Source: Actinomycetota bacterium (lineage in GTDB: Bacteria; Actinomycetota; Actinomycetes; Actinomycetales; Dermatophilaceae). Taken from it: DNA of 64,000 nucleotides. The notes under the pieces are model-generated. The model saw nothing but the letters and a program-made list of their open reading frames with translations. It had not been told where the DNA came from and did not search any database. The position numbers and the translations under genes are program-made. Shown here piece by piece: positions 22,877 through 46,275 of the stretch (positions are counted from its first letter, which is position 1; every line of letters starts with the position of its first letter). The DNA lies in the NCBI GenBank assembly GCA_020161845.1, contig JAIUNK010000005.1, positions 62,001-126,000 on the forward strand, written 5' to 3'.

Positions 22877-23388
22877 GCGGTCCAGCCTAAGTCCGCTCGC
22901 CATGCCGGCCGGATCGGGGCTCATGGACGGTCGTCCGGTCGGCGCAGAACTCGGCGTGAACCGGATCGGTGAGCGTGTCGATCGCCCCGTACGGCGCCCG
23001 TGGTGACCGTTCGTCGGTTCCCGCCGGATATGACGGATCCCCTGGTCACGGTGATGATGCGGTCACCCTAGACACAGAACGTTCGGTCGGAAATACTTGG
23101 TGGTCGCCGGGCCTGTGTGAGCCAGACAACACTGAACGAGTCTCTCGTCTGGTTGCGCATGCTCGGCGGCAAGGGTCGCGACAGACATCGACGTCACACA
23201 CGACGCCCGGGGTCGATCACGCCCGCAGACGAATAGCCGTGACGGTCCTCCGGAGGATGGCGTCGACAGGCCGCGACCCGACCTGTGCCGCCCCCGGACC
23301 CGACCGGCAGGCTCCTCGTCTCAACGTCACCGACGCCTCAGGCGACCTCGACCGGAGGGCCCGCCGGCTTGGGAAGGAACTGCACGTC
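22877..23388. other. 512-bp gap between ugd and the acetate-transport operon
   Basis: No gene is supported here. It must hold the divergent promoters of ugd and the DUF485-actP operon. Visible structure includes the operator-like site at 23074-23094, a CCAGAC/GTCTGG stem-loop around 23121-23153, and the palindrome TCCTCCGGAGGA near 23248. A long leader for the DUF485 transcript is possible. Confidence 0.6.
23074..23094 (+). promoter_or_regulatory. Candidate TetR operator (site E), upstream of DUF485-actP
   Basis: ACAGAACG-TTCGGT-CGGAAAT matches the site before the thiolase gene (46255-46275, read on the minus strand) at 18 of 21 positions. It reads on the same strand as the genes it precedes. 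A TAGACA overlaps its first bases and could be a -10 box. It lies 294 bases before the DUF485 start. Confidence 0.5.
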
Positions 23389-23706
23389 ATGCCTCAAGAG
23401 CACGATCTAGAACACGGCCGCTATTACCGAGGGATGGTCGACGCCCGAAGGAAACTCGTTTGGCCACTGGTCATCAGCACCGTGGTCTTCTTCTTCCTGC
23501 AGCAGGTGCTGACCAATTTCACCTCCGCGCTGGACGGGATCCCCTTCACTGGGATGAGCGCGGCCTACCTCTACGCCTTCGCTCAGTTCTTCTTCGCCGT
23601 CATCCTGACGTCGATCTACCGCAGCCGGATGCGTCGGTTCGAGCGTGAGCTCGAGCCCTACAAGCCGACCCATGCCCTCGCTGTCGATGGTGGTGGCCAC
23701 CTGTGA
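23389..23706 (+). CDS. DUF485 (YjcH-type) small membrane protein
   Basis: The 105-residue protein has two hydrophobic helices (about 25-45, VWPLVISTVVFFFLQQVL, and 60-82, AYLYAFAQFFFAVILTSIY), an acidic/His-rich N-terminus and a basic loop after helix 2 (RSRMRRFERELEPY). DUF485 proteins are nearly always paired with ActP-type acetate symporters, and here the stop overlaps the actP GTG start. GGGAAGGA lies 9 bases before the ATG. It probably stabilises or assists the symporter. Confidence 0.88.
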   Translation: MPQEHDLEHGRYYRGMVDARRKLVWPLVISTVVFFFLQQVLTNFTSALDGIPFTGMSAAYLYAFAQFFFAVILTSIYRSRMRRFERELEPYKPTHALAVDGGGHL

Positions 23707-25271
23707 GCAGCCAAGCCGCAGTCCTCTTCGTCGTCCTCGTCGGGATCACTCTCGGCATCACCTATTGGGCGGGTAAGCGCAACAAGAGTGTCGAGTCCCA
23801 CCTGGTCGCCAAGGGCGCCATCTCGGGGCGGGCCAACGGTGTCGCCATTGCCGGTGACTTCATCTCGGCGGCGACCTTCCTCGGCACCACCGGCGCCATC
23901 GCCCTGCAGGGTTTCAACGGCTTCTACCTGGCCGTGTATATCCCGATCTCCTATCTGTTGTGCATGCTGCTCGTCGCCGAGCCGCTGCGTAACCTCGGCA
24001 AGTTCACCCTCGGTGACGTGCTCGCGACTCGGTTCCCGCAGAACAGCGTCCGGGCCGTGATTGCCGTGGCATCGATCGTCGTGTCGCTGCTCTACATCGT
24101 CGCCCAGTTCGTCGGTGCCGCCCTGCTCATCCAGTTGCTGTTCAAGATCGAATACTGGGTGGCCGCCGTGGCCATCGGCCTGCTGACGCTCGTCTACACG
24201 CTGTTCGGTGGCATGATCGCCACGACCTACATCCAGATCGTCAAGACCGGGATCTTGCTCTTCTGTGGCGCGCTGCTGCTCGTCCTGGTGCTGAGCAAGT
24301 TCGGCTGGAACCCGATGATGGTGTTCCAGGAGGCCGCCGCGACCAGCCAGAACAAGGCCATCCTGCCCATCCGGGCCGGGACGTGGCCCCAGCTGGAGCA
24401 GTTCTCGATGATCTTCGGCGTGACGCTGGGTGTCCTCGGTCTGCCGCACGTCATGATCCGGTTCCTCACCGTCAAGGACGGGGCGGCCGCCCGCACCTCG
24501 GCGGTCTCCGCGATCTGGATCTTCGCGGTCTTCCTGATCACCCTTCCCGTCATCTCCTACGGCGCGATGCTGCTGGTGGGGCAGGCCAAGATCAAGCAGA
24601 CCGCCGGTGGCGGCAACATGGCGATGCCGCTGCTGGCCAGCAACCTGGGCGGGGACCTGCTGCTGTCCTTCGTCTCGGCCGTGGCCTTCGCGACGATCCT
24701 GGCGGCGCTGTCCGGGCTGGTCATCGCCACCACCGGGTCGGTGTCCCACGACCTCTACAGCAAGCTGCTCATGAAGGGCAACGTCGAGCACCACGCGCAG
24801 CTGCGCATCGCCCGGTTGGCCACGGTGATCAGCGTGCTGATCCCGGCCTTCATCGCGTTGGCCGCCCAGAAGCAGAACGTGGCCTTCCTGGCGACCCTCG
24901 CGATTGCGGTGGCGGCCAGCAGCAACCTGCCGGCCATCCTCTTCACGATCTACTGGCGCCGCGCCACCGCCACCGGCATCGCGGTGGGCATGGTCGTCGG
25001 TCTGGTGACCGCTGTGGGCATCATTCTGATCAGCCCGGCCTTCCAGTCCCCGGAGACCGCGTTGATCAAGCTCAGCAGCCCGGGCATCTTCTCCATCCCG
25101 GTCGGCTTCCTGGTCATGTGGCTGGTCTCGTTGGCCACGCAGCCCAAGGGTGAGGCCCGGGCAGTCGCGGACGAGAACTACCATCGGGTGCACACCCAGG
25201 CCGTGACCGGCTACGACCCGCGGGTCCTGCGGGCCGCCGCCACTGCCGAGGCAGGGACGTCCGCCAGCTGA
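23703..25271 (+). CDS. actP: Cation/acetate symporter ActP (SSS family)
   Basis: The 522-residue sodium:solute symporter has about 13 helices and probably imports acetate or other short monocarboxylates. Family marks are the N-terminal AGKRNKSVESHLVAKGAISG, the GDFISAATFLGTTGAIALQG motif of acetate symporters, and the inter-helix GGMIATTYIQIVKTGILL. The GTG at 23703 overlaps the DUF485 stop. Acetate uptake fits a strain that turns acetyl-CoA into polyhydroxybutyrate. Glycolate or propionate are alternative substrates. Confidence 0.9.
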   Translation: MSSQAAVLFVVLVGITLGITYWAGKRNKSVESHLVAKGAISGRANGVAIAGDFISAATFLGTTGAIALQGFNGFYLAVYIPISYLLCMLLVAEPLRNLGKFTLGDVLATRFPQNSVRAVIAVASIVVSLLYIVAQFVGAALLIQLLFKIEYWVAAVAIGLLTLVYTLFGGMIATTYIQIVKTGILLFCGALLLVLVLSKFGWNPMMVFQEAAATSQNKAILPIRAGTWPQLEQFSMIFGVTLGVLGLPHVMIRFLTVKDGAAARTSAVSAIWIFAVFLITLPVISYGAMLLVGQAKIKQTAGGGNMAMPLLASNLGGDLLLSFVSAVAFATILAALSGLVIATTGSVSHDLYSKLLMKGNVEHHAQLRIARLATVISVLIPAFIALAAQKQNVAFLATLAIAVAASSNLPAILFTIYWRRATATGIAVGMVVGLVTAVGIILISPAFQSPETALIKLSSPGIFSIPVGFLVMWLVSLATQPKGEARAVADENYHRVHTQAVTGYDPRVLRAAATAEAGTSAS

Positions 25272-25280
25272 TCCGCTCCG

Positions 25281-27674: not shown

Positions 27675-29558
27675 TCAGGTATGGATGTAGGACCCCGGGG
27701 CCGGCTCGATCACCGGGTACTTGCGGGAGCCGAGGGTGCGCGGGGCCCGTTTGCTGGGTCCCGAGCGCGGGGTCAGCCACTCCACCCAGTCCACCCACCA
27801 GGACCCGTCCTGGCGCTGCGCGCCCTTGAGCCAGTCCTCGTGGCTCGCGGGGTTTTCGGGATTGGTGAAGTAGTACATGCCCTTGTGTTTGGGGGTGGCC
27901 ACCAGGGTTTGCACGTGGCCGCTGGAGCACAGCACGAACCGGCAGTCCCCGGCGACCATGTGCGTCGTGTGATAGCAGCCGGACCACGGGGTGATGTGGT
28001 CCGTCAGGCCGGCCACCACGTAGGTGTCGGTGCCGATCCGGCCGATGTCGATCGGGGTGTCGAGGATGTTCACGGCCCCCGGCTTGGCCAGCTGGTTCTC
28101 GGTCACGATGTCGAGGAGCTGGTGGTGCAGCGCCGCGGGCAACCGGGTGGTGTCGGCATTCCAGGCGAGGATGTCGAAACTGGGCGGGTCGTTGCCCATC
28201 AGGTAGTTGTTGACCCAGTAGTTCCAGACGAGCTCGTTGGGCCGCAGCCACGCGAACACCTGCGCCATGCGCCAGCCGTCCAGGTAGCCCTTCTGGCTGG
28301 ATTGCATCTTGGCCACCTTGACCGTCTGCGGCGAGGCGAACAAGAGGATCTCGGCGTCGACGCGGCTGTCGAGCAGGGTGACCAGCATGGTCGTGGAGTT
28401 GATCTTCTTCTCGCCGCGGCTGGCCAGCAGCGCGGTGAGAATCGAGACCATCATCCCGCCCGCGCAGCCGCCCATGATGTTGACATCGGGCGATCGGGAC
28501 ACCGAGCGCGTCACGTCGATGGCGCGCAGGGCGGCTTCGGCGTAGGTGTCGAAGTTCCAGTCCCGCTCCTTGGCCGTCGGATTGCGCCAGCTCACGCCGT
28601 ACAGCTGGATTCCGTGCTTGATCAGGTATTCGTACATGCTGCGCCCGGGCGCGAGGTCCAGCGCGTAGTACTTGTTCACCTGAGGCGGGATCACCAGCAG
28701 CGGCCGCGCGCCGACTTGCGCCGTCTGCGGCTGGTAATGGATCACCTCCATGATGTCGTCGCGATAGATGACGGAACCGGGCGTGACCGCGAGGTTTTCG
28801 CCGACCTTGTAGGGCTTGCGGTTCACCTGGGACGGCATGCCGTGGTTCGTGCGCATGTCGTGGATGAGGTTCCCCAGCCCGCGGGCGAGGGACTCACCGC
28901 GGGTCTCCTTGGCCTTGCGCAGCGCCGCCGGATTGAGCACCAGGTTGTTGGTCGGCGCCAACCCCTCGCGGATCAGGTGGACGACGAACTCCACCCGCTC
29001 GACGTCCTTCTCGGGCAGCCCGAGGCTCTCGACGAAATTGTCGATCTCACCGCCGGCAAACAGGTAGAGCTGCATGACCGCCTTGAGCAGCCGGGTGTCC
29101 TCCCAGGCCATGTCCCGGAATCGCTTGTCGCTGCGGTCCGGGGCGATCGCCGACCGGCCGGTCCCGATGCGGAACAGGCTGGCGGCGGTGCGCGGTGCCG
29201 CCGAGATCACCGCCCTCGGATTGGTGAGCGTCTTCTTGCCCAGCGTCAGGAGACCGTCCAGGGCGTCCTTCGGTCCGAACCCCACGAACGGGCTCGGGCC
29301 GACAACGGCCCCGGCGCCGCCGGCCAGCAGCGCGGCCTCCTGCGCGAACTCGGGGTGCTCCTCGTCCTGCTCGTCGTCCGGCTCGCTGGGCGAGGCCGTC
29401 GCCGAGGGGGGCAGGATCGCCGATGGCTCCTCCGACGCAGGGCCCTCCGGCGCAGGGTCCTGCGCCGGAGGCGCCGGCACGTGGGTGGGCACCGTCTCGG
29501 GGTCAGAGCGCAGCTCCTCGCCCGGCGTGACGGAGCCCGACCCACGTGTCGAGGACAT
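27675..29558 (-). CDS. phaC: Polyhydroxyalkanoate synthase PhaC with N-terminal extension
   Basis: The 627-residue enzyme polymerises (R)-hydroxyacyl-CoA on the granule surface. The alpha/beta-hydrolase core carries the lipase-like box GGCAGG with the catalytic Cys near residue 365, Asp near 519 in GLTDHITPW and His near 544 in SSGHVQTLV. The PhaC N-domain (RFRDMAWEDTRLLKAVMQLY) starts near residue 140. The first 80 or so residues are Pro/Glu/Ala/Ser-rich and look disordered, an unusual addition. The ATG at 29558 overlaps the thiolase stop, which sets the start. The length suggests a class I enzyme working without PhaE or PhaR. Confidence 0.92.
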   Translation of the reverse strand: MSSTRGSGSVTPGEELRSDPETVPTHVPAPPAQDPAPEGPASEEPSAILPPSATASPSEPDDEQDEEHPEFAQEAALLAGGAGAVVGPSPFVGFGPKDALDGLLTLGKKTLTNPRAVISAAPRTAASLFRIGTGRSAIAPDRSDKRFRDMAWEDTRLLKAVMQLYLFAGGEIDNFVESLGLPEKDVERVEFVVHLIREGLAPTNNLVLNPAALRKAKETRGESLARGLGNLIHDMRTNHGMPSQVNRKPYKVGENLAVTPGSVIYRDDIMEVIHYQPQTAQVGARPLLVIPPQVNKYYALDLAPGRSMYEYLIKHGIQLYGVSWRNPTAKERDWNFDTYAEAALRAIDVTRSVSRSPDVNIMGGCAGGMMVSILTALLASRGEKKINSTTMLVTLLDSRVDAEILLFASPQTVKVAKMQSSQKGYLDGWRMAQVFAWLRPNELVWNYWVNNYLMGNDPPSFDILAWNADTTRLPAALHHQLLDIVTENQLAKPGAVNILDTPIDIGRIGTDTYVVAGLTDHITPWSGCYHTTHMVAGDCRFVLCSSGHVQTLVATPKHKGMYYFTNPENPASHEDWLKGAQRQDGSWWVDWVEWLTPRSGPSKRAPRTLGSRKYPVIEPAPGSYIHT

Positions 29559-30724
29559 CAGGACAGCCGCTCCACCACGATGGCCATGCCCTGCCCGCCG
29601 CCGACGCACATCGTCTCGACGCCGATCGTCTTGTCCTTGGCCTTCAGCCCGTTGAGCAGGGTGGCCAGGATGCGCACGCCGGTCATGCCGAAGGGGTGAC
29701 CCAGGGCGATCGCGCCACCGTGCGGGTTGAGCTTGTCGCCGAACGGGTCGACGCCGATGCCGGTCGCCGACGGGATCACCTGCGCGGCGAAGGCCTCGTT
29801 GATCTCCAGGATGTCGATGTCGTTGGCGGTCAGACCGGCGCGGGACAGCGCCTGCTTGGTCGAGTCGATCGGGCCCAGGCCCATCAGCTCGGGGGTCAGC
29901 GCGCTGACGCCCGTCGACAGGATCTTCGCGATGGGGGTCAGGCCCAGCTCGCGGGCCCTGGTGTCCGACATGATGATCGTGGCTGCGGCACCGTCGTTGA
30001 GCGGGCAGGCGTTGCCGGCGGTGATCCGGCCGGTCTTGCTGAACACCGGGCGCAGACCGCCGAGCGACTCCATCGTGGTGCCCTCACGGGGACCCTCGTC
30101 CTTGGTGAACATCTCGCCGCTGGCGAGCTGCACGGGGATGATCTCGTTCTCGAAGAAGCCGGACTTCTGGGCGGCCACGGCCCGCTCCTGGCTCAGCACC
30201 GCGAAGCGGTCCATGTCTTCGCGGGTGATGCCCTCCTGGTCGGCCACCTTCTCCGCGGTGAGGCCCATCGGCATGTAGGCCTGCGGCAGGCCCTCGGCGT
30301 TGCCCTTGTCGAACCGGTGGTTGATCGTCTCCGGCTGGTCGGCGTAGACGCCGAGCGGCGACCGGGTGACCATCTCGATGCCGACGGCGGCGAACGCGTC
30401 GCCCTCGCCGGCCTTGATGGCGTGGAAGGCCATCCGCACGGCCTGCAGCGAGGAGGAGCAGTAGCGGTTGACCGTGCATCCGGGGGCGTTGACCCGGGCC
30501 AGCATCGAGACGATGCGGCCGAGGTTGTGGCCCTGCTCCCCACCGGGGAGGGCGCAGCCCGCGATGACGTCCTCGAGCTCGGTGCGGTCGAACGCCGGGA
30601 TCTGCTCCAGGACCTTGTCCAGGATGTATGCGCCCAGGTTGTCCGGGCGCTCGTTGACGAGGGCGCCCTTCCCGGCGCGTCCGATCGGCGATCGGCCAAT
30701 GGCTACGATGACTGCTTCAGGCAT
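29558..30724 (-). CDS. phaA: Acetyl-CoA acetyltransferase (thiolase), PhaA role
   Basis: The 388-residue thiolase would condense two acetyl-CoA to acetoacetyl-CoA. The nucleophile Cys89 is in NRYCSSSLQAV, the His pair in INEAFAAQ and NPHGGAIALGHPFGMTG, and the second Cys in CVGGGQGMAIV. It is translationally coupled to phaC by ATGA, which supports the PhaA role. The sequence also resembles FadA/FadI-type thiolases (degradative, longer chains), so its direction is inferred from context. The ATG at 30724 is used; a hairpin lies upstream, so it probably has its own promoter. Confidence 0.85.
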   Translation of the reverse strand: MPEAVIVAIGRSPIGRAGKGALVNERPDNLGAYILDKVLEQIPAFDRTELEDVIAGCALPGGEQGHNLGRIVSMLARVNAPGCTVNRYCSSSLQAVRMAFHAIKAGEGDAFAAVGIEMVTRSPLGVYADQPETINHRFDKGNAEGLPQAYMPMGLTAEKVADQEGITREDMDRFAVLSQERAVAAQKSGFFENEIIPVQLASGEMFTKDEGPREGTTMESLGGLRPVFSKTGRITAGNACPLNDGAAATIIMSDTRARELGLTPIAKILSTGVSALTPELMGLGPIDSTKQALSRAGLTANDIDILEINEAFAAQVIPSATGIGVDPFGDKLNPHGGAIALGHPFGMTGVRILATLLNGLKAKDKTIGVETMCVGGGQGMAIVVERLS

Positions 30725-30828
30725 GGTCACTACTCCCACTCTGTCGGGCGTTCTTGGTCACTGAAGATGCGTAGGTGTGGCGGATGGTACCGGCACGGCG
30801 TACGGCGTTGCCTGCCGTCACCCGGACT

Positions 30829-30859: not shown

Positions 30860-32491
30860 TCACTTCGTAGCGGCCTGGCCGCCGGTGCTGGCGACCGCCA
30901 GACCACCCTGGGCCAATTGGTCGCGGAGCAGCTTCTTGTCGTACTTGCCCACTCCGGTGCGGGGCACGTTCTCGATGAACGTCCACAGGTCGGGAAGCCA
31001 CCACTTGGCCACCTTCCCGGTGAGGAAGGTGCGCAGCTCGTCCGGGGTGACCGTCGAGCCCTCGCGCAGCACCACACACGCTAGCGGCCGCTCACCCCAG
31101 CGGGTGTCCGGGGAGGCGATGACGGCCACCTCCTTGACGTCGGGGTGCTGGGTCAGCGCCGATTCCAGCTCCAGGGACGAGATCCACTCGCCACCGGACT
31201 TCACCACGTCCTTGGCGCGGTCGGTGATGCGCAGGTAGCCCCGCTCGTCGATGGTGCCGACGTCGCCGGTGCGCAGCCAACCGTCGTGGAACTTGTCCTC
31301 GGCGGGATCCAGGTAATAGCTCGTGGTGACCCAGGGGCCACGGACCTCGATCTCGCCGACGGACTCGCCGTCCCGGGGGACCGGCACACCGTCGGTGTCG
31401 ACGATCCGCACCTCGACGCCGGCGAGCACCTGTCCGGCCGTCGCCTGGTAGTCGAGCGCCTCATCCGGCGTCGCGTCGCGCGGCGGGAAGGCCAACGAGG
31501 CGATGGGGTGGGTCTCGGTCAGACCCCAGCCGGCCGCGAAGGTCGCACCGTAGCGCTTCTGGTAGGCCTCGATCAGGCTGCGTGGCGAGGCGGACCCGCC
31601 GCACAGGATCATGCGCAGTGAGCCGAGGTCGTAGTTGCCCTCGGGCAGGTGCAGCACATCCCACCAGACGGTCGGCACGGCGCCGGCCACGGTGATCTTC
31701 TCGTCGGTGATGACTCGGGCGATGCGCGGGGCGTGCGCGTAGACACCCGGCAGGTAGAGGTCGGCGCCCACCATCCAGCAGATGTAGGGCAGACCCCAGG
31801 CGTTGCCGTGGAACATCGGCACGATCGGCAGCACGCGGTCCTGGTAGTTCATCTTCAGCGATTCACCCGAGGCCATGCCGAGGGTGAAGATGAACGTCGA
31901 GCGGTGGCTGTAGACCACGCCCTTGGGTCGGCCGGTGGTGCCGCTGGTGTAGCACATCGCGGCGGCGGACCTTTCGTCCAGGTCGGGCCAGGCGAAGTCC
32001 TCGGACTCGTCGGCGATGAAGTCCTCGTATTCGACGTAGTCGACGCCCAGCACCGATCGGTCGCCCTCACCGAAGACGACAATCTTCTCCAGCGTGGGGC
32101 AGTTCGGCAGCGCCGGGGCGATGTTGGCGGCCAGGGCCGCGTCGAGCAGGAGGACCTTGTCCTGGGCGTGGTTGACGATGTATTCGATATCGGGCGCGGC
32201 CAGGCGGATGTTCACCGTGTGCAGGACCGCCCCGGAGCAGGGCACCGCGAAGTAGGCCTCCTGGTGCTCCTGGTTGTTCCAGGCGAAGGTGGCGACCCGG
32301 TCGTCCGGGCCCACCCCCGCCTTGGCCAGCGCGTTCGCCAACTTGCCGACGCGCTTGGCCAGGTCCGCGAAGGTGATCTCCTGCTGACCGTTCTCGGTCA
32401 GGGTGATGATTCGGCTGCCCGGGTAGGTGTCCCGGCCGTGCTCGAAGATGTGCCGGAGGGTGAGCGGAAAGTCCGGCATCGTGCTCAACAT
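30860..32491 (-). CDS. AMP-forming fatty acyl-CoA synthetase
   Basis: The 543-residue enzyme activates a carboxylic acid with ATP and CoA. The P-loop is MCYTSGTTGRPKGVVYSHR, the adenine-binding motif is AGWGLTETHPIAS, the hinge region is DGWLRTGDVGTIDERGYL, and the catalytic Lys lies in RTGVGKYDKKLL. The sequence is closest in style to medium/long-chain acyl-CoA ligases (FadD/AlkK type), not phenylacetate-CoA ligase. It starts 1 base after the next synthetase stops, so both are in one operon. GGGAG precedes the ATG at 32491. The chain length of the substrate is unknown. Confidence 0.88.
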   Translation of the reverse strand: MLSTMPDFPLTLRHIFEHGRDTYPGSRIITLTENGQQEITFADLAKRVGKLANALAKAGVGPDDRVATFAWNNQEHQEAYFAVPCSGAVLHTVNIRLAAPDIEYIVNHAQDKVLLLDAALAANIAPALPNCPTLEKIVVFGEGDRSVLGVDYVEYEDFIADESEDFAWPDLDERSAAAMCYTSGTTGRPKGVVYSHRSTFIFTLGMASGESLKMNYQDRVLPIVPMFHGNAWGLPYICWMVGADLYLPGVYAHAPRIARVITDEKITVAGAVPTVWWDVLHLPEGNYDLGSLRMILCGGSASPRSLIEAYQKRYGATFAAGWGLTETHPIASLAFPPRDATPDEALDYQATAGQVLAGVEVRIVDTDGVPVPRDGESVGEIEVRGPWVTTSYYLDPAEDKFHDGWLRTGDVGTIDERGYLRITDRAKDVVKSGGEWISSLELESALTQHPDVKEVAVIASPDTRWGERPLACVVLREGSTVTPDELRTFLTGKVAKWWLPDLWTFIENVPRTGVGKYDKKLLRDQLAQGGLAVASTGGQAATK

Positions 32492-32492
32492 G

Positions 32493-36767: not shown

Positions 36768-36788
36768 ATTACTGAATCAACGTTCGGT
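36768..36788 (-). promoter_or_regulatory. Candidate TetR operator (site B), upstream of the diiron gene
   Basis: On the minus strand it reads ACCGAACG-TTGATT-CAGTAAT, with TTA on its left flank. It lies in the 175-base gap between paaR and the diiron gene, 107 bases before the latter. No clear -10 abuts it, unlike sites A, C and D. Confidence 0.55.
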
Positions 36789-36835
36789 TAAGAGGCTGGG
36801 GAAGTCCAGTTGTGCCGGGTCCGGTGCCGGCGCGC

Positions 36836-37552
36836 CTATTCGCCGACGGCGCTCCCGCGGCGCGAGGCGCCGGCGGGCGAGGCGCCGGCGGGCGAGGCGC
36901 CGGCGGGCGAGGCCTCGCCGGGTTGCACGAGCGCGCGGCCGCCGGCCGCTGAGGCGATGCCGGCGAAGGCGATCGTCTTGATGTTGGCGGCCAGATCCTC
37001 GACGCGGTCGCCGCGGCGGGGCTTGTACCACTCCACGACCGAGTTGACCATGCCGAACACCAATCGCGCGGTCACGGCCGGGTCGATGTCGTCGCGCAGA
37101 TAGCCCTCGTCGCGGGCCTGGGCCACCAGGACGGTGACATGCCGATCGAACTCGCGGCGCCGGGTCAGCGCCTGCCGCTCGGCGCGGGTGTTGCCGCGGA
37201 TCCGCAGCAACAGCGTGACGAACGGCAGTTCGTGCACCAGCAGCAGGCTCGCCCGATAGACCAGCTCCTCGAGCCGGTGGAAGGCCGACCCGGGCACCTC
37301 GTCCACCTCGTGCAGCAGCGCGAAGAGGGCATCGAGGGCCCGGTCGGTGGCCAGCGTGAGCAGCTGTTCTTTGCTCTCCACGTGGTGGTAGATGGCCGAC
37401 TTGCTGATGCCCAGCTCGTGCGAGAGGTCCTCCATGGCGGTGCCGTCGTACCCGCGCTCGTTGAAGACCCGCACCGCCCCTTGGAGCACCGATTCCAGGT
37501 CGTGCCCCGGTCGCCCTCGGCGGGTCCGGGCAGGTGCGGTTTGGGTGACCAT
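36836..37552 (-). CDS. paaR: TetR-family regulator, probably PaaR
   Basis: The 238-residue repressor has a TetR HTH at about residues 18-62 (VFNERGYDGTAMEDLSHELG, then ISKSAIYHHVESKEQLL). The helical core that follows (RASLLLVHELPFVTLLLRIRG) resembles actinobacterial PaaR, which is inactivated by phenylacetyl-CoA. It lies next to paaE on the same strand, and PaaR-like sites precede the neighbouring operons. The C-tail has PAGAS pentapeptides coded by 15-bp repeats. The ATG at 37552 lacks a ribosome site, and TAAATA lies 9 bases before it, so the message may be leaderless. Confidence 0.8.
   Translation of the reverse strand: MVTQTAPARTRRGRPGHDLESVLQGAVRVFNERGYDGTAMEDLSHELGISKSAIYHHVESKEQLLTLATDRALDALFALLHEVDEVPGSAFHRLEELVYRASLLLVHELPFVTLLLRIRGNTRAERQALTRRREFDRHVTVLVAQARDEGYLRDDIDPAVTARLVFGMVNSVVEWYKPRRGDRVEDLAANIKTIAFAGIASAAGGRALVQPGEASPAGASPAGASPAGASRRGSAVGE
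36862..36921. repeat. 15-bp in-frame tandem repeat in the paaR tail
   Basis: Three perfect copies of GCGAGGCGCCGGCGG (36862-36906) and one altered copy (36907-36921) code the pentapeptide series at the C-terminus. Slippage could change tail length between strains. Confidence 0.8.
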
Positions 37553-37587
37553 ATCGTCAGTATTTATCCCACCTGCCGGGGATGCGC

Positions 37588-37688: not shown

Positions 37689-38879
37689 TCAGGCGTCGAA
37701 GTTGACGACGACCTTGTCGGTGGTGGGATGCGCCTGGCAGGTCAGGATGTAGCCCTTGGCGATCTCGTCCGCCTCGAGCGCGTAGTTCTCGTCCATGTCC
37801 ACCTCGCCGGAGACGAGCTTGGCCCGACAGGTGCCGCACACTCCGCCGGCGCAGGCGAACGGCACGTCCGGACGGCTGCGCAGCGCCGCGTTGAGCACCG
37901 ACTCCCGGGCGGCCTTGGGGCTGGCCACCTCGCCCTCAAGCCCGTCCAGGGTGAACGTGATCTCGAAGTTCTCCCCGGTGGGGTCGACCACGACGGGGCG
38001 GCCGGTGTTTCCGGCGCTGGCCTCACCCGGCTTGCCGGTGCTGAACAGCTCGTAGCGCACCTTGTCCGCTGCCACGCCCAGCTCGCCGAGCCGGTCGCGA
38101 ATGAGCTGGACCAGGTCATAAGGGCCGCACAGGAACCACTCGTCGACGACCTCGGGCCGGAACACCGTGCCGAACATCGTGTCGATCTTGTCGGCGTCCA
38201 GGCGCCCGGTGTGGGCCGGGCTGAGCCGCTGCTCGCGGGAGAGCAGGTGGTGCACCGCCAGCCGGGCCGGGTAGCGGTCCTTGAGGTCGGCGATGTCGTC
38301 GACGAACATCACGTCGAGGGCCACCCGGTTGGAGTAAACCAGGTTCACGTAGGCCTGCGGGTTGTCCGCCAGCAGTTGCTTGACGATGGACATGATCGGG
38401 GTGATCCCCGAGCCGGCCGCGAAGGCGACGTAGCGGGCCAGGCCCGTCCCCGCCTCCTTGGAGATCTGCTCGGGGTCGTTCAGCGCCGTCATCCGGTGCT
38501 TGGAAATGAAGGCACCGCTCGGGCTCATCACGTCGATCACGGTGCCCGGCTTGAGGTTGTCGTTCGCCCAGTTGGAGAACAGACCGCCGAGGTCCCGCTT
38601 GATGGCGATCTTGATCTCCCCCGGCGTCGGGGTCGCGCACAGCGAGTAGCTACGGCGTACCTCCTTGCCGTCGAGCTCCGTGCGCAGCGCGACGTACTGG
38701 CCACTCACGTAGTCGAAGTCGCCCGAGAGCTCGGCGGGCACCGCGAAGGTGACCTCGATCGCCTTATCGGTCAGATGGCGAACGCCGGAGACGGTCAGGG
38801 GGTGGAAACGAGCCCGGCGCGAGGAGGCGCCCTCGTCGGCCTCGGGGCTGGTCTGCGGGGATGTGTCGACGTCGGTCAT
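37689..38879 (-). CDS. paaE: Phenylacetyl-CoA epoxidase reductase PaaE
   Basis: The 396-residue NADPH reductase passes electrons to the PaaABC epoxidase. The N-terminal FAD domain carries RRSYSLCATP and the pyridine-nucleotide domain GSGITPIMSIVKQLL and FLCGPYDLVQ. A C-terminal plant-type 2Fe-2S domain has CAGGVCGTCRAKL and a fourth Cys in YILTCQAHP. The ATG at 38879 overlaps the paaD stop. The acidic/Ser-rich first 30 residues are not part of the fold. It ends the paaABCDE operon and is followed by three hairpins. Confidence 0.93.
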   Translation of the reverse strand: MTDVDTSPQTSPEADEGASSRRARFHPLTVSGVRHLTDKAIEVTFAVPAELSGDFDYVSGQYVALRTELDGKEVRRSYSLCATPTPGEIKIAIKRDLGGLFSNWANDNLKPGTVIDVMSPSGAFISKHRMTALNDPEQISKEAGTGLARYVAFAAGSGITPIMSIVKQLLADNPQAYVNLVYSNRVALDVMFVDDIADLKDRYPARLAVHHLLSREQRLSPAHTGRLDADKIDTMFGTVFRPEVVDEWFLCGPYDLVQLIRDRLGELGVAADKVRYELFSTGKPGEASAGNTGRPVVVDPTGENFEITFTLDGLEGEVASPKAARESVLNAALRSRPDVPFACAGGVCGTCRAKLVSGEVDMDENYALEADEIAKGYILTCQAHPTTDKVVVNFDA

Positions 38880-39421
38880 CAGTGCACCTTGAAGTAGTCG
38901 AAGGGCTCCAGGCAGTCCTGGCACACATACATGGCCTTGCACGCGGTCGACCCGAAGCGGGCCATCTCGCGGGTGTTCAGGGAATGGCAGCGGGGGCACT
39001 TCACGGCCAGGGACAGCCGTGCCGAGGTGCGGTTATGGCCTACGGCGGCCCGACCCGTCGGCGGCGCGATGCCGTAGTCGGCGAGCTTGGCCTTGCCGAC
39101 CTCGGTCATCCAGTCGGTGGTCCACGCGGGGGAAAGCACGAGCCGCACCTCGACCTGCGGATAACCGGCCTCGGTGAGGACCGCCGCCACGTCGTCGCGC
39201 AACACCCCCATCGCCGGGCAGCCGGAGTACGTCGGGGTCAGCTCGACGACGGCGTGGCCCTCGTCGGTGACCGTCGCGGACCGCAGGATGCCCAGATCCT
39301 CGATGGTCACGACGGGCACCTCGGGGTCGACGACGGTCGCGGCCAGGTCCCAGACCCGGGCGGCGGCCGGGTCGGCGGGCCGCAGTGCGGCGCCGTCGAC
39401 CGGACCCGCCGGGGCCTGCAT
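38879..39421 (-). CDS. paaD: Phenylacetyl-CoA epoxidase assembly protein PaaD
   Basis: The 180-residue MIP18/DUF59 protein is thought to help insert iron into the epoxidase. The DUF59 core is VVDPEVPVVTIEDLGILRS and TPTYSGCPAMGVLRDDV. A C-terminal zinc-ribbon type segment (CPRCHSLNTREMARFGSTAC, then CQDCLEPFDYFK) is typical of PaaD. It is joined to paaC and paaE by ATGA overlaps on both sides. Confidence 0.92.
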   Translation of the reverse strand: MQAPAGPVDGAALRPADPAAARVWDLAATVVDPEVPVVTIEDLGILRSATVTDEGHAVVELTPTYSGCPAMGVLRDDVAAVLTEAGYPQVEVRLVLSPAWTTDWMTEVGKAKLADYGIAPPTGRAAVGHNRTSARLSLAVKCPRCHSLNTREMARFGSTACKAMYVCQDCLEPFDYFKVH

Positions 39422-40248
39422 CACCACTCCGCCCCGGGGAACTTCCTGGCCAGGCTCTGCATTTCGGCCAGGATGTAGCCCAAGGTCTCGCGATGCTGAC
39501 CGCGCCGCCCGCCGGTGCGCGCCGTCTTGGACGTCGGCACCGCCAGGCTCGACTCCGTGATCGCCTGGCGCAGTCCGGCGTCGACGCGGGAGCGCAGGGT
39601 GGAGGGCCGCACGGCCACGCCCTCGAGCCGGTCGATCAGCTCGTCGTCCTCGAACAGCTCGTCGAGGTAGGGCCAGACGGCGTCCAGACCGGCCTGCATG
39701 CGCCGGTGCGACTCGTCGGTGCCGATGCCCAGCCGCAACGCCCACTGCCAGGCGTGGTCGACGTGATATTCGACCTCCTTGACCGCCTTCGCGGCAATGG
39801 CGGCGAGCGTCTCGTCGCTGGACTTGGCCAGCTCGGTGTAGAGGCACTCGGCATAGATGCTGAACAGCAGCTGGCGGGCGATGGTCTGCCCGAAGTCACC
39901 GTTCTCGACCTGCACCAGGTGGCAGCAGGTGAACTCGTGCTCGTCGCGGAAGTAGGCCAGGTCGTCCTCGCTCTTGCCCCAGGCCGTCCCGGCGTAGGTG
40001 TATAGCGTCCGGGCGTGTCCGAGCAGGTCCAGGGCGATATTGCCCAGGGCGATGTCCTCTTCCATCTCCGGCGCCCGGGAGATCCACCAGCCGAGCTGCT
40101 GGGACAGGATCAGCGAGTCGTCGGCGAGCCGCACGGCGTAGCGAGCGACATCTTCGGATGCCTGCAGGCCCGCGGCCTGGATGTCCTCGGCGGTGAGCGC
40201 CTTGCCGGAGCTGATCCTGGTGGCGCTGTCGAAGCCTCCGATGCTCAC
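39421..40248 (-). CDS. paaC: Phenylacetyl-CoA epoxidase structural subunit PaaC
   Basis: The 275-residue ferritin-fold subunit pairs with PaaA in the epoxidase complex but has no functional metal site. Typical segments are LADDSLILSQQLGWWISRAP, IALGNIALDLLGHARTLY and YHVDHAWQWALRLGIGTDES. It starts in an ATGA overlap with paaB and ends in one with paaD. The segment EVEYHVDHAWQW is a strong family mark. Confidence 0.93.
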   Translation of the reverse strand: MSIGGFDSATRISSGKALTAEDIQAAGLQASEDVARYAVRLADDSLILSQQLGWWISRAPEMEEDIALGNIALDLLGHARTLYTYAGTAWGKSEDDLAYFRDEHEFTCCHLVQVENGDFGQTIARQLLFSIYAECLYTELAKSSDETLAAIAAKAVKEVEYHVDHAWQWALRLGIGTDESHRRMQAGLDAVWPYLDELFEDDELIDRLEGVAVRPSTLRSRVDAGLRQAITESSLAVPTSKTARTGGRRGQHRETLGYILAEMQSLARKFPGAEW

Positions 40249-40589
40249 AGGTGAGGCACCCCCTCACTCTGTGTGTAGTAGGTCGCGTGGCGGTAGTACT
40301 TGCCCTGCGGCGACTCGAAGAACGCGCCCTTGGCGTCAGGGTCGGAGGTGGTGATGGCCTCGGCCGGCACCACCCAGACGGAGACGCCCTCGTTGCGGCG
40401 CGTGTAGAGGTCCCTGGCGTTGCGGACCGCCATCGCGGCGTCGGGGGCGTGGATCGACCCGGCGTGCACATGGGCCAATCCGCGCGAGGCCCGGACGAAG
40501 ACTTCCCACAGCGGCCACAGCGGCTTCGAACCACCCTGCTGGGCGTCCTGCGGCTGGCCCGCGTCAGGGCCGGCGGTGTTCTCGCTCAT
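40245..40589 (-). CDS. paaB: Phenylacetyl-CoA epoxidase subunit PaaB
   Basis: The 114-residue small subunit bridges the PaaAC dimers. The family segments PLWEVFVRASRGLAHVHAGS, HAPDAAMAVRNARDLYTRR and SVWVVPAEAITTSDP are clear. The first 20 residues are a Gln/Gly/Asp-rich lead. It begins 30 bases after paaA and overlaps paaC by ATGA. PaaB is needed for activity of the complex. Confidence 0.94.
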   Translation of the reverse strand: MSENTAGPDAGQPQDAQQGGSKPLWPLWEVFVRASRGLAHVHAGSIHAPDAAMAVRNARDLYTRRNEGVSVWVVPAEAITTSDPDAKGAFFESPQGKYYRHATYYTQSEGVPHL

Positions 40590-41696: not shown

Positions 41697-41722
41697 ATTA
41701 CCGAACGTTTGGTCTGATAATA
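41697..41722 (-). promoter_or_regulatory. paaA promoter with PaaR-like operator (site C)
   Basis: On the minus strand TATTAT (41717-41722) is followed after 3 bases by ACCAAACG-TT-CGGTAAT (41697-41713). The inner 14 bases are an almost perfect dyad (ACCGAACGTTTGGT on the plus strand). It has a 2-base spacer where sites A, B, D and E have 6. A repressor here would cover the transcription start. Confidence 0.65.
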
Positions 41723-41728
41723 CGGTGT

Positions 41729-41754
41729 GCCGGGGCCTCCGCAGAAGCCCCGGC
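41729..41754 (-). terminator. Hairpin after paaZ
   Basis: GCCGGGGC pairs with GCCCCGGC across a 10-base loop, 27 bases beyond the paaZ stop and just upstream of the paaA promoter. It should end the paaJ-paaH-paaZ transcript. Confidence 0.65.
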
Positions 41755-41781
41755 CCGGCCGCTTGGCGATGTCTCTCGACG

Positions 41782-43896
41782 TTAGCCGGAGTAGTCCTTG
41801 TCGACGAGCGTGAGCAGGTCGTAGCGCGCCACCATCTCGTCGTTCTGGTTCATCACCAGGACGTCCCAGGCGACCTCGCCATAGTCGTCGGTCACGCGCG
41901 GGGTGATCCGCTTGGCCGTCAGCTCCACGCGGATCGAGTCGTCGATGCCGACTGGGGCCATGAACCTCAGGTTGTCCAGGCCGAAGTTGGCCAGGACGGG
42001 ACCGCGGCCAGGGGCCACGAACAGACCGGCCGCCCAGCTGATGATGAGGTAGCCGTGCGCGACGATGCCCGGGAAGAACGGGTTGGCCTCGGCGGCCTCC
42101 GCGTCGGTGTGGGCGTAGAACTTGTCGCCGGTCTCGTTGGCGAAGTCGGTGATGTCCTGCAGGGTGACCTTGCGCAGGTCGGAGACGTAGGAGTCGCCGA
42201 TCTTCAGCTCGGCCAGATCCATCAGGAAGGGGTGCTTGAGCGAGGGGTCGCCGCCGTAGTTGGCGCTGCCGGCGATGACTCGATCGGCGCCGACCTGCCA
42301 GATCCCGGTGATCGCGGTGAGCATGTTCGGCGAACCCTGCACCGCGGTGCGCTGCATGTGGTGCTTGATGGCGCGCACGCCACCGAGCTCCTCGCCGCCA
42401 CCGGCCCGCCCGGGACCACCGTGGATCAGGTGCGGCATCGGCGATCCGTGCCCGGTGGAGGTCTTGGCGTCCTCGCGGTTGAGGACGAGCACCCGGCCAT
42501 GGTGGGCGGCAATGCCCGTCGTCAGCCGTTGGACCGTTGCCGGGTCGTTGGAGCACACCGTCGCCGCCAGCGAACCGCTGCCCTTGGCGGCCAGGCGCAC
42601 CGCGTCATCGAGATCGGTGTAGCCGATCACCGAGGTCACGGGGCCGAACGCCTCGATCGTGTGCACCGCGTCCGAGTCGGGGTCATCCCAGGTCAGGATC
42701 ACCGGTGACATGAACGCGCCCGCGTCGACCACGGCCTCGCCGTCGGCGGTGCGCACCGCTGGGGCCTGCAGCGAGCCGTTGATCGTGCCGCCCCCGTCGA
42801 CGAGACGCTGCACGGCCTCCTTGACATCGCGCAGCTGGTCCAGGGACGCCAGCGCGCCCATCGTGACGCCCTCCACCCGTGGGTCGCCGACGACGACGCG
42901 CTCGGTGATCCGGGCGGTCACCGCGTCGACGACCGCCTGCACCAGGTTCTGCGGGACGATCGCCCGCCGGATCGCGGTGCACTTCTGGCCGGCCTTGGTG
43001 GTCACCTCAGCCACCACGGACTTGACGTAGGCGTCGAACTCCGGGGTCTCGGGCGTGGCATCCGGGCCGAGGATCGCGCAGTTGAGGGAGTCCGCCTCGG
43101 CCATGAAGCGCACCCCGCCCTCGATCACGTTGACGTGCTTGCGCAGCGAGTTGGCGGTGCTCGCCGAGCCCGTGAAGGCCACCGAGTCGCGATAGTCGAG
43201 ATGGTCGAGCAGGTCGCGCGCGGAACCGGAGATGAGCTGCAGCGAGCCCTCCGGAAGGAGACCGGACTCGATCATCATCCGGACGCAGGCCTCGGTGAGA
43301 TAGCCGGTCGGGGTGGCCGGCTTCACGATCGTCGGCACACCGGCCACGAACGCCGGGGCGAACTTCTCCAGCATCCCCCAGACGGGGAAGTTGAAGGCGT
43401 TGATCTGCACGGCGACGCCCGCGAGCGGGGTGTAGATGTGCGTGCCGAGGAAGCTGCCGTCCTTGGACAACGGCTCCAGCGGTCCGTCGAAGACGACATT
43501 GGAGTTGGGCAGCTCGCGGCGGCCCTTGGACGACATCGTGTAGAGGACCCCGATGCCGCCGTCGATGTCGATGAAGTTGTCGACCTTCGTCGCGCCGGTG
43601 CGCAGCGATACGGCGTACAGCTCCTTCTTGCGCCCGCCGAGGTAGATGGCGAGCTCCTTCATCACCAGCGCCCGCTCATGGATCGTCATGGTGGCCAAGT
43701 TGCGCTGGCCGACGGTGCGTCCGTAGTCGATCACGGCGCCGATGTCCAAGCCGTCGGTGCTGACCCGGAACAGGGTCTCGCCGGTGCTGGCGTCGAAGAC
43801 GTCGGCGGCCTTGCCGACCTGCTCGGGAGTCCACCACGAGCCCATCACGTAGCTGGGGACGAGCTGGGTCGTCGCGCGTTCTGCGGTAGCGGTCAT
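41782..43896 (-). CDS. paaZ: PaaZ: oxepin-CoA hydrolase and aldehyde dehydrogenase
   Basis: The 704-residue fusion opens the oxepin-CoA ring and oxidises the resulting semialdehyde. The N-terminal aldehyde dehydrogenase domain (about 1-530) has the catalytic Cys near residue 306 in [16 protein letters not shown]. The C-terminal MaoC-like hydratase domain (about 555-704) has the Asp/His pair in [20 protein letters not shown] followed by [12 protein letters not shown]. Both halves appear intact. The ATG at 43896 is used. It follows paaH by 31 bases and ends the operon. Confidence 0.94.
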
Positions 43897-43927
43897 GCCC
43901 GTACCTTTCTGGTCAGTGCGGAAGTGG

Positions 43928-44782
43928 TCACCAGTCGTAGAAGCCCTTGCCGGTCTTGCGCCCGAGCTCCCCGGCCGCGACCTTGTCGCGCAGGATCTGC
44001 GGCGGGGCGAAGCGCTCACCCAGCGTCGAGGCGAGGTATTCGGCGATGCCCAGGCGCACGTCCAGACCCACGATGTCGGTGGTCTTCAGCGGCCCGGAGG
44101 GGTGCTTGTAGCCCAGCTCCATGGCCAGGTCGATGTCCTTGGCGTCGGCGACGCCCTCCTCCACCATCCGCATCGCCTCCAGGGCCAGGAAGACCCCGAG
44201 CCGCGAGGAGGCGAACCCCGGGGAGTTCTTGACGGTGATGGGCGTCTTGCCGATGGCCTCGACCCAGCCCTGCGCGGCGGTGACCAGGTCGGGCGTGGTG
44301 GCGGCGCCGACCACGATCTCGACGAGGGTCGAGGCGGGCACCGGGTTGAAGAAGTGCAGCCCGATGAAGTGCTCCGGGCGCTGCAGGGTGGCCGCCAGGT
44401 CGTCCAGCGACAGGGAGGAGGTGTTCGAGGCGAGGTAGGCGCGCTCGCCCAGGACCGATTCCACCAGCTGCAGCGCGGTGGTCTTGAGTTCCAGGTCCTC
44501 CGGGACGGCCTCGACCACGAGGTCGCAGTCGGCGAAGTCGGCGCTGTCCGCGGAGACGGTGGTGCGTTCCAGGGCGACGTCGAAGTTGTCCAGCGAACCG
44601 CGCTCCACGGAGCGCAACAGCGCCTTCTCCAGGCTCTGCTCCGCGGAGGTGGCCGTGGCCGAGTCGCGCTCGACGACGACGACCTCGCAGCCGGAGGTGA
44701 GGAAGGCGTGCGCGATGCCGATGCCCATGCGGCCGCCGCCGAGGACGCCGACGCGGGCGGGAAGCTGCGCGTGACCCGTCAT
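43928..44782 (-). CDS. paaH: 3-hydroxyacyl-CoA dehydrogenase, PaaH-like
   Basis: The 284-residue enzyme oxidises a 3-hydroxyacyl-CoA with NAD. The dinucleotide fold is VGVLGGGRMGIGIAHAFL, the catalytic His is in IGLHFFNPVP, and the SNTSSLSLDDLA and GKTPITVKNSPGFASSR segments are typical of 3-hydroxybutyryl-CoA dehydrogenases. In this operon it probably acts on 3-hydroxyadipyl-CoA (PaaH), but a 3-hydroxybutyryl-CoA role is also possible. AAGGAG lies 13 bases before the ATG at 44782. It is a short single-domain form without a hydratase fusion. Confidence 0.85.
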   Translation of the reverse strand: MTGHAQLPARVGVLGGGRMGIGIAHAFLTSGCEVVVVERDSATATSAEQSLEKALLRSVERGSLDNFDVALERTTVSADSADFADCDLVVEAVPEDLELKTTALQLVESVLGERAYLASNTSSLSLDDLAATLQRPEHFIGLHFFNPVPASTLVEIVVGAATTPDLVTAAQGWVEAIGKTPITVKNSPGFASSRLGVFLALEAMRMVEEGVADAKDIDLAMELGYKHPSGPLKTTDIVGLDVRLGIAEYLASTLGERFAPPQILRDKVAAGELGRKTGKGFYDW

Positions 44783-44900
44783 GATCAGCCGTTCTCCTTG
44801 TTGTTGGTATCGCGGGTGCAGGTTGGATCGGGTGGTGCGGGTGGATCCGGCGGTGGCGCGGGCCGAGCTGGGGCGGCCCACGCCGTACGCCGTACGCGGT

Positions 44901-46112
44901 TCAGACCCGCTCGACGAGCAGGGCCACGCCCTGACCGACCCCGACGCACATCGTGGCCAGTCCGCGGCGGGCGCCTTCGCGCTCCATTCGACCGAGCAGT
45001 GTCACGGTGATCCGCGAGCCGGACGACCCCAGCGGGTGGCCCTGCGAGATCGCGCCGCCGTCCCGGTTGACGATCTCCGGATCGATCCCCAGTCTGCGCA
45101 TGCAGGCCAGCGACTGGGTCGCGAAGGCCTCGTTGAGTTCGACGGCGCCGATGTCGTCCAGGGACCAGCCCGCCCCCGCCAGCGCCTTCTGGGTGGCCGG
45201 CACCGGGCCGATGCCCATGATCTCGGGGGCGCAACCGGCGGCGGCGCCGCCCGCGATCCGCGCCCGGGGGGTGAGCCCGAGGCGCTCGCAGGCCGCGTCC
45301 GAGGCGACCACGATCGCCGATGCACCGTCGTTGAGCGAGGAGGAGTTGCCCGCCGTGACGACACCACCGGGCTTGACGACGGGTCGCAGCCCGGCCAGGA
45401 CCTCCATGGTCGTGCCGGCCCGGGGACCCTCGTCCTTGGCCACCACGACGTCGCCCTTCTTGCCGGGCACGGTGATGGGGATGATCTCGGCGTCGAGGCG
45501 GCCGGCCTCCATCGCGGCCAGCGACCGCTCGTGGGAGCGCACCGCGAACGCGTCGGCGTCCTCGCGAGTGATGCCGTCGACCGTCGCGACCTCCTCGGCC
45601 GTCTCGGGCATCGAGAAGGTCATCTTGCCGTCCCGGGCCAGGTCGCCCTTGGCGAAGCGCTTGTTGACGAAGCGCCAGCCGATCGAGGTGTCGAACATCT
45701 CGCCGGGCTTGGCGAACGCCTTGTCCGGCTTGGCCAGCACCCACGGGGCCCGGGACATCGACTCGGTGCCGCCGGCCACGACGACATCGGCCGCGCCGGC
45801 CTTGATCATGTAGGAGGCCATCAGGATCGCCGACATGCCGGAGGCACACAGTCGGTTCACCGTGATCCCGGGGACGCTGTCGCCGAATCCGGCCAACAGC
45901 CACGCCATCCGGGCGACATTGCGGTTCTCCTCGCCGGCGCCGTTGGCGTTGCCGAGAATCACCTCCGCGACCAACTCGGGGTCCACGCCGGCGCGCTGAA
46001 CCGCCTCGCGCACGACCGCAGCGGCCAGGTCATCGGGACGGACCGGGGACAGGCCGCCACCGTAACGGCCTACGGGGGTCCGCACGCCACCAACGAGCAT
46101 TGCTTCGACCAT
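44901..46112 (-). CDS. paaJ: Acyl-CoA thiolase, PaaJ-like
   Basis: The 403-residue thiolase should cleave 3-oxoadipyl-CoA to succinyl-CoA and acetyl-CoA. Catalytic residues are Cys89 in NRLCASGM, His in ELNEAFATQSL and GHPLGSSG, and the second Cys in CVGVGQGVALL. The family Asn-Pro-x-Gly-Gly segment is altered to NRDGGAISQGHPLG. It heads the paaJ-paaH-paaZ operon; paaH starts after 118 bases. Site D is 142 bases upstream. An acetyl-CoA acetyltransferase role cannot be excluded. GAGGAAGAGG precedes the ATG. Confidence 0.85.
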   Translation of the reverse strand: MVEAMLVGGVRTPVGRYGGGLSPVRPDDLAAAVVREAVQRAGVDPELVAEVILGNANGAGEENRNVARMAWLLAGFGDSVPGITVNRLCASGMSAILMASYMIKAGAADVVVAGGTESMSRAPWVLAKPDKAFAKPGEMFDTSIGWRFVNKRFAKGDLARDGKMTFSMPETAEEVATVDGITREDADAFAVRSHERSLAAMEAGRLDAEIIPITVPGKKGDVVVAKDEGPRAGTTMEVLAGLRPVVKPGGVVTAGNSSSLNDGASAIVVASDAACERLGLTPRARIAGGAAAGCAPEIMGIGPVPATQKALAGAGWSLDDIGAVELNEAFATQSLACMRRLGIDPEIVNRDGGAISQGHPLGSSGSRITVTLLGRMEREGARRGLATMCVGVGQGVALLVERV

Positions 46113-46254
46113 GGATCGAGCCTCTTCCTCGTCATCAGGGGGACATCATCAGGGGACAGGAGTCCGGTGCCGGCCTGCCGCGGGGTTGGGCGGCGAGCGC
46201 TTGGCTGCTCCCGCGCCTGGTCACCCCCGGCGGTCGCCGGCGGACGGCGCACGC

Positions 46255-46275
46255 ATTACCGACCGAACGTTCAGC
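46255..46275 (-). promoter_or_regulatory. Candidate TetR operator (site D), upstream of paaJ
   Basis: On the minus strand it reads GCTGAACG-TTCGGT-CGGTAAT, preceded by TAGTAT (46278-46283). It is the closest relative of site E. The plus strand also contains ACCGAACGTTCAGC, a shorter PaaR-like dyad, at 46262-46275. Confidence 0.6.

Follow-up and report, generated by a model that had tools for sequence, protein, structure and literature searches.

Why should one short sequence stand before genes for phenylacetate breakdown, a solute symporter, acyl-CoA ligases and a ferritin-like diiron protein? The question is raised by a 64-kb window (the whole stretch of DNA analysed, positions 62001-126000 of contig C49) from a Dermatophilaceae genome of 4.39 Mb in 82 contigs, with a G+C content of 71%. 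A preliminary description of the window had listed five such places, here sites A to E, as a motif of 8 + 7 bases under a TetR regulator encoded nearby. Our analysis indicates that the five, together with a sixth place missing from that list (F), very probably serve as operators for a TetR repressor of the PaaR type, in all likelihood the one encoded in the window (Table 1), and that the genes at the five sites would probably be turned on together for phenylacetate use. The operator and the type of regulator are already known; the makeup of the regulon is a variant.

The motif as first written, ACCGAACG-N6-CGGTAAT, is present and non-random: at up to three mismatches the window holds six matches where 0.95 would be expected, and no shuffle out of 100 held as many. 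Four of these are named places, 23074 and 46255 with two mismatches each and 34242 and 36768 with one; the other two are 34245, which is the 34242 site on the opposite strand, and 44991, an unrelated place. The fifth named site, 41697-41713 on the minus strand, reads ACCAAACG-TT-CGGTAAT and had been taken for a variant with a spacer of two bases; it is the same operator in a different register. The unit is a single, roughly palindromic 24-bp element, ATTACNGACCGATCGGTCNGTAAT, in favour of which the 8 + 7 motif with variable spacer was dropped. Since the element is a near-palindrome, the earlier statement that it is oriented with its genes carries no meaning, and site B, which lies between divergent units, can be read on the plus strand as well.

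An operator matrix was built de novo from the 300 bases before paaA in 12 relatives that carry a close relative of the window TetR gene, found in a sample of 58 genomes of the same family; our own genome was excluded, and symmetry was imposed on the model, not learned. The consensus is ATTACTGACCGATCGGTCAGTAAT, with a log-likelihood of 153 against 37-39 in three shuffles, which were run with half as many starts as the real set. Over the 64 kb this matrix ranks the five named sites first, in the order E, D, C, B and A. Site F comes sixth, the next-best place scores 9.2, and none of 40 local shuffles of the window held a place at 14.3 or more. Across 355 kb of other DNA from the same genome there was one place above 20 and one further above 14.

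The preliminary description had asked whether the motif is rare genome-wide. It is, at the level of its 14-bp core ACCGAACGTTCGGT, which at up to two mismatches occurs at 15 places, four of them (A, B, D and E) within a 23-kb stretch; the core read backwards gave one place. Site C has three mismatches to the core, hence its absence from the 15. Outside the window lie 11 core places; eight of them have matrix scores below 6 and were set aside as chance occurrences, leaving C5 (14.9), C50 (23.6) and C64 (23.7). A search with a 21-base pattern at up to three mismatches returned 11 distinct places (12 rows), of which four are A, B, C and E, D being missed, against 0 and 1 places in controls; the places on C82, C32, C42 and C80 come from this search. 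The C50 place precedes a PaaI-kind thioesterase gene (TIGR02286, 84.5 bits, below the cut-off of 118.9).

Conservation across the family ties these operators to a regulator. Close relatives of the window TetR occur in 12 of the 58 genomes (44-54% identity, E at most 1.9e-46; the next best match is at 6.9e-18). A paaA gene is present in 39 of the 58 and in all 12 that have the close TetR, where it lies within 20 kb, the length fetched around each locus. We examined 30 of 40 paaA loci for the half-site pair ACCGA-N4-TCGGT; G051 was added from its own stretch for the de novo search. With at most one mismatch, 9 of the 12 loci that have the TetR (our own included) show the pair before paaA, against 0 of the 18 that lack it, and with two mismatches the counts are 12 of 12 and 3 of 18; at one locus (L074) the best place with at most one mismatch differs from the site later found by the matrix. 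By the matrix, which was trained on these sequences, 11 of the 12 relatives have a paaA site that scores about 20 or higher. In 10 of the 12 the site lies in the 300 bases before paaA, and that of G023 (37.9) reaches the aligned gene start. The 11 paaA sites are symmetric at 5-10 of 12 bases (median 8), where random 24-mers average 3.5. Further sites precede paaJ and paaZ in L052, and others lie near paaR, at L050 (21.3), at L053 (23.1, before a paaI-paaR pair) and, weakly, at L057 (11.2); in G048 a site precedes a paaI-like-paaR pair. The earlier proposal of one regulon under the TetR near 36836 is thus well supported, in that TetR relatives, paaA and operator co-occur across the family.

The operator itself resembles published ones. 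For PaaR of S. pristinaespiralis the operator AACGA-N4-TCGGT is given as putative (PMC10933834), for B. cenocepacia it is ACCGACCGGTCGGTT (PMC9493321), and for T. thermophilus PaaR (TTHA0973) a 14-bp operator, AACnAACGTTnGTT, is described (PMC6651687). The last and ACCGAACGTTCGGT have the same base at 10 of 12 fixed positions, and the consensus of the relatives here is longer, at 24 bp. As in the PaaR regulons of actinobacteria (S. pristinaespiralis, C. glutamicum) and B. cenocepacia, a TetR repressor of paa genes would be at work. In B. cenocepacia, paaR is downstream of paaABCDE, and several separate paa promoters share an inverted repeat with halves ACCGA/TCGGT. Phenylacetyl-CoA is given as the PaaR effector (PMC9493321), and a survey names PaaR as the dominant local regulator in Actinomycetes (PMC13186573). 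Because the window operator matches these published operators, an ordinary mechanism is to be expected, namely PaaR-type repression, probably relieved by phenylacetyl-CoA. We liken the window TetR to the characterised PaaR proteins by domains, gene linkage and operator; no PaaR model is among the 15 NCBIfam matches. Unlike in those regulons, the sites here reach an SSS symporter, FadD-type ligases with a polyhydroxyalkanoate (PHA)-like module, and a diiron-ferredoxin pair.

Several observations weigh against this reading, and they bear on both the identity of the regulator and the extent of the regulon. The window TetR had been called the only strong candidate nearby, yet it is not the only candidate: the same contig encodes a second TetR, a real rival binder. 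In a tree of 18 regulators this second protein groups with the PaaR of two genomes of the same genus, G002 and G054 (100/99), and the window TetR is placed elsewhere with weak support (84/85) and long branches; G054, for its part, has a TetR relative and no paaA site. On these grounds the second TetR could be the vertical ortholog of the same-genus PaaR and the main binder, with the window TetR a later arrival or a co-binder. We consider this unlikely. It is the window TetR, not the second, that adjoins paaE, whereas the second adjoins an amidohydrolase gene that matches the 8-oxoguanine deaminase model above its cut-off, and the 16 kb around it contain no place scoring above 5. The recognition-helix stretch of the window TetR, KSAIYHH, is of a kind, KSA(I/L)YHH, found in 10 relatives outside the genus, all with paaA sites of at least 20, whereas the KAGIYYHV of the second TetR is common to G002, whose paaA site is the weakest (20.4), and G054. 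Given this shared stretch and the strong paaA sites that go with it, we take the window TetR as the likely cognate regulator. TetR proteins near distant diiron genes (L132, L140-L142) were also considered and are not close kin of it.

The extent of the regulon is open to a different objection, that only D, E and the paaI site are functional and A, B and C are chance or decayed. The window sites A, B, C, D and E are symmetric at 5, 9, 6, 5 and 6 of 12 bases; A and C are thus poorly symmetric, as are the top scorers D and E. Similar sites precede Usp, MFS and hydrolase genes elsewhere in the genome, which with those on C42 and C80 are not obviously phenylacetate genes. In the relatives, the 20 kb surrounding paaR yielded no SSS, FadD or diiron gene that could carry a counterpart of its site, and a search of the 58 sampled genomes of the family at E 1e-20 returned no relative of the diiron protein. 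A de novo control on 12 of the 18 paaA loci without the TetR found a different motif with a log-likelihood of 139.8, near enough to the 153 of the real set that likelihood alone proves little and the shuffles are the only usable null; that motif probably stems from conserved coding starts. Even so, an independent matrix ranks A, B and C third to fifth in the 64 kb, and all three are located upstream of genes and outside called genes. For site C there is also a parallel in the homologous diiron genes discussed below, where a PaaR-like site lies within 100 bp before the gene in 4 of 16 loci (L128 23.4, L129 19.5, L141 15.8 and, weakly, L140 11.0) and none was found within that distance in the other 12. 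We therefore regard a regulon reduced to D, E and paaI as rather improbable.

Hexamers resembling a -10 box had been reported before A, C and D. By eye, D has TATTAT, and B (TAGGAT) and E (TAGTAT) have similar sequences, those at A and C being weak; a consensus sigma-70 scan of 34000-46500, which covers sites B to E, found no promoter, and terminator-like matches were fewer than in shuffles (1 versus 3.7). That the motif is a general promoter element or an insertion-derived repeat and no operator, for which such flanks might speak, is barely credible, since the scan does not bear them out, the core is so rare in the genome, and the motif at paaA tracks the TetR gene across genomes.

Table 1. 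Operator sites, regulators and genes of the putative PaaR regulon. Positions are those of the window unless a contig (C) or fetched locus (L) is named; sites carry matrix scores, proteins their model matches.
Feature	Position	Strand	Score or match	Context
Operator A	23071..23094		20.9, fifth	before DUF485 and SSS symporter genes; 1 mismatch to 14-bp core
Operator B	34242..34265		24.3	between divergent fadD/thiolase/phaC unit (-) and alpha/beta hydrolase (+)
Operator C	36768..36791		24.3	about 108 bp before diiron gene; single good half-site
Operator D	41697..41720		29.3	before paaABCDE
Operator E	46255..46278		29.4, best in window	before paaJ-paaH-paaZ
Operator F	37541..37564		14.3	overlaps start codon of TetR gene
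Outside site	C50:16200 (L114 1501-1524)		23.6	about 35 bp before PaaI-kind thioesterase gene
Outside site	C64:85711 (L121)		23.7	before alpha/beta-hydrolase-like gene
Outside site	C82:37760 (L123)		20.6	before Usp gene
Outside site	C32:49630 (L116)		16.4	before hydrolase gene
Outside site	C42:2455 (L118)		16.2	at a gene
Outside site	C5:8105 (L115)		14.9	before MFS gene
Outside site	C80:16308 (L122)		14.2	at a gene
TetR-family regulator, PaaR-type	36836..37552	-	TetR_N (PF00440), TetR_C_24 (PF17932)	238 aa; N-terminal helix-turn-helix
Second TetR	C49:44685-45311 (L048:14667-15299)	+		50% identical to window TetR; about 54 kb away on same contig
DUF485 membrane protein	23257..23706	+	PF04341	ATG 23257 after GGAGG
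Sodium/solute symporter (SSS)	23703..25271	+	PF00474
PHA synthase-like	27675..29609	-	TIGR01839 598.9 bits, cut-off 855	class II best
Thiolase	29558..30739	-	PF00108, PF02803
fadD-type acyl-CoA ligase 2	30860..32746	-	PF00501; NF004837 633 bits, above cut-off	open reading frame; start uncertain
fadD-type acyl-CoA ligase 1	32493..34007	-	PF00501	candidate PaaK substitute; start with GGAGG
Alpha/beta hydrolase	34395..35264	+	TIGR02240 152 bits, below cut-off 250.6	nearest PHA depolymerase
[2Fe-2S] ferredoxin, stand-alone	35343..35621	-	PF00111 53.9 bits	92 aa; GTG start
Ferritin-like diiron protein	35635..36660	-		341 aa; TTG start; candidate phenylacetate-pathway oxygenase
paaE	37689..38999	-	TIGR02160 474 bits, above cut-off	open reading frame; true start probably downstream
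paaD	38879..39400	-	TIGR02159 above cut-off	start approximate
paaC	39421..40248	-	TIGR02158 above cut-off
paaB	40245..40589	-	TIGR02157 above cut-off
paaA	40620..41639	-	TIGR02156 498.8 bits
paaZ	41782..44019	-	TIGR02278 1022 bits	open reading frame; true start inside
paaH-like 3-hydroxyacyl-CoA dehydrogenase	43928..44881	-	PaaH model below cut-off
paaJ-like thiolase	44901..46112	-	TIGR02430 497.9 bits, below cut-off 597

With PaaR-type control by the window TetR as the preferred reading, the genes at the sites suggest how such a regulon might operate, the roles of the transporter, ligases and diiron protein, like binding, repression and ligand, being proposed from sequence. The 36836-37552 protein would bind ATTACNGACCGATCGGTCNGTAAT as a dimer or a pair of dimers and block the promoters; on entry of phenylacetate, the phenylacetyl-CoA formed would release the repressor. 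The regulon would then supply uptake (SSS symporter and DUF485 protein), CoA activation and phenylalkanoate or PHA turnover (two FadD-type ligases, thiolase, PhaC-like protein and hydrolase), ring oxygenation (PaaABCDE and the diiron-ferredoxin pair), and ring opening and beta-oxidation (PaaZ, PaaH and PaaJ). The PaaI-like thioesterase on the other contig and the repressor itself would also belong to it, site F at the regulator's start codon making autoregulation possible.

All five paaABCDE products score above their NCBIfam cut-offs. The symporter had been read as an acetate transporter (ActP), a label that its score does not sustain: its best models are ActP and MctC, both far below cut-off, and the operator upstream makes phenylacetate perhaps the substrate. 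DUF485 proteins partner SSS symporters. No canonical PaaK scores above the TIGR02155 cut-off in the genome (best 93.9 bits against 646.3, on another contig), and PaaK homologs stand beside the paa genes in G002 (of the same genus), G005, G048 and G041, 62-68% identical to the PaaK of L142, with a partial match at the edge of the 20-kb stretch of G023. A FadD-type ligase of the unit behind site B may do the work of PaaK, and the unit as a whole may feed phenylalkanoates towards phenylacetyl-CoA. The PHA-like module around operator B (27675-35264) could tie aromatic polyester turnover to phenylacetyl-CoA control.

The diiron gene had been described as an orphan, and it is not one: a ferredoxin gene lies directly behind it, and its homologs elsewhere stand beside a reductase gene, often among paa genes. 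The window ferredoxin is 50% identical to the reductase of L138 over 105 aligned positions and, judging by this alignment, corresponds to the N-terminal domain of the reductase that accompanies the diiron gene elsewhere; here this domain alone is present, as a separate gene. The diiron protein matches neither TIGR02156, TIGR02158 nor any other Paa model at E 0.001. Its residues D79, E113, H116, E184, E214 and H217 (numbering one less than in the full protein) are invariant in 17 sequences and, with their R2-type spacing, are the presumed diiron ligands. The predicted model (pLDDT 81) has ribonucleotide reductase R2 as its nearest fold (E about 1e-3, TM 0.3-0.6), and with root-mean-square deviations of 7-14 Å and 12-18% identity in the listed R2 matches this amounts to a fold-class resemblance at most. 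The partner reductase and the catabolic context are foreign to R2 and R2-like oxidases. An assignment as encapsulin cargo ferritin was rejected, the matches being weak (20 bits against cut-offs of 90 and 125).

Pseudomonadota, Actinomycetota and a metagenome-assembled genome (MAG) labelled Stygiobacter yielded 16 diiron homologs with 63-73% identity; this MAG resembles the Magnetospirillum loci so closely, both in sequence and in order, that mis-binning is possible. Each of the 16 loci has, adjoining the diiron gene, an open reading frame of 337-515 aa with a reductase Fer2 motif, which is divergent in L140 and L141 and follows the gene in the remaining 14; the reductase of L138, the sole one profiled, is BenC/PaaE-like and below cut-off. 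L138 itself (Alcaligenaceae CGII-47) carries PaaN, PaaG, PaaI, PaaJ (3-oxoadipyl-CoA thiolase), PaaK and PaaX above cut-off beside the diiron-reductase pair, with PaaH just below (641 of 669), and no PaaA match anywhere in the genome. Across the 16 genomes PaaK is above cut-off in 13 and PaaN in 12, and PaaA in only five, with one fragment (G059), one weak match (G070) and nine without; as the set includes MAGs whose completeness is not given, single absences are weak. Eight of the 10 genomes without a proper PaaA have both PaaK and PaaN. The exceptions are L140 and L141, where the diiron gene is followed by PaaH-like, hydratase, PaaG-like, TetR, PaaI-like and PaaJ-like genes. Where tested, the models for PaaH and PaaG gave scores below cut-off.

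A wider co-occurrence set covered 82 genomes, all of one order, that of Azospirillum sp. TSO22-1. The diiron gene occurs in 29 of these, PaaA above cut-off in 29 and PaaN in 31, and the diiron gene accompanies PaaN in 29 of 31 genomes versus 0 of 51 that lack it (Fisher p 4e-20, uncorrected for kinship); in G098 the sole copy counted is a 50%-identical form. All five PaaN-bearing genomes without PaaA have the diiron gene, with PaaN 1.4-24 kb away. The two PaaN-bearing genomes without the diiron gene both have PaaA, with PaaN on a different contig from paaA, and in the 24 genomes with both oxygenases a PaaN lies 3.7-9.2 kb from paaA. In most cases, then, PaaN keeps company with the oxygenase that a genome has, which is what one would see if the diiron pair were able to carry out the PaaA step. 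In each of the eight loci examined of the 29, the diiron gene is flanked by PaaX and the reductase. Against plain replacement, both oxygenases occur together in 24 genomes and in the window, and a related aryl-CoA may therefore be the substrate.

Two further features of these loci may be recorded. In three of the five PaaN-bearing genomes without PaaA, a ferritin-like protein with a weak PaaA match of about 68 bits, under the cut-off, is encoded beside the diiron gene (L139:7572-8393, minus strand; G094; G104). A second diiron form, 50% identical, has its own PaaN 4-5 kb away in G097:C118 and G098:C47, and is perhaps, with that PaaN, a paralogous module for another aryl-CoA.

We tentatively suggest, while holding the idea short of probable, that the diiron protein and its [2Fe-2S] reductase or ferredoxin form a second, non-homologous phenylacetyl-CoA epoxidase or a closely related ring oxygenase, which replaces PaaABCDE in some lineages and was here horizontally captured and brought under PaaR, with FadD-type ligases replacing PaaK. 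Like the PaaABCDE epoxidase, the homologs pair a ferritin-like protein with a Fer2/FAD reductase in the same pathway context; unlike it, the diiron component is one family, about 340 aa long, with a BenC/PaaE-like reductase next to it. A literature search found no description of a non-Paa phenylacetyl-CoA oxygenase in the texts open to it, most subscription journals lying outside its reach.

The operator set provides a testable list of phenylacetate genes where the pathway is scattered, and it drew in a diiron gene that annotation could not place. This diiron pair is the part most worth following. The survey cited above reports PaaA and PaaC in every one of the 825 proteomes that carry its PaaK, once filtered for co-localisation with PaaABCDE, and proposes them as the sole pathway marker (PMC13186573). 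If the diiron pair does oxygenate phenylacetyl-CoA, PaaA/PaaC would be insufficient in that role, and a diiron enzyme of one family, to all appearance less complex than PaaABCE, would be at hand for studying the ring epoxidation of CoA esters. Genomes now scored as being without the phenylacetate pathway would then have it.

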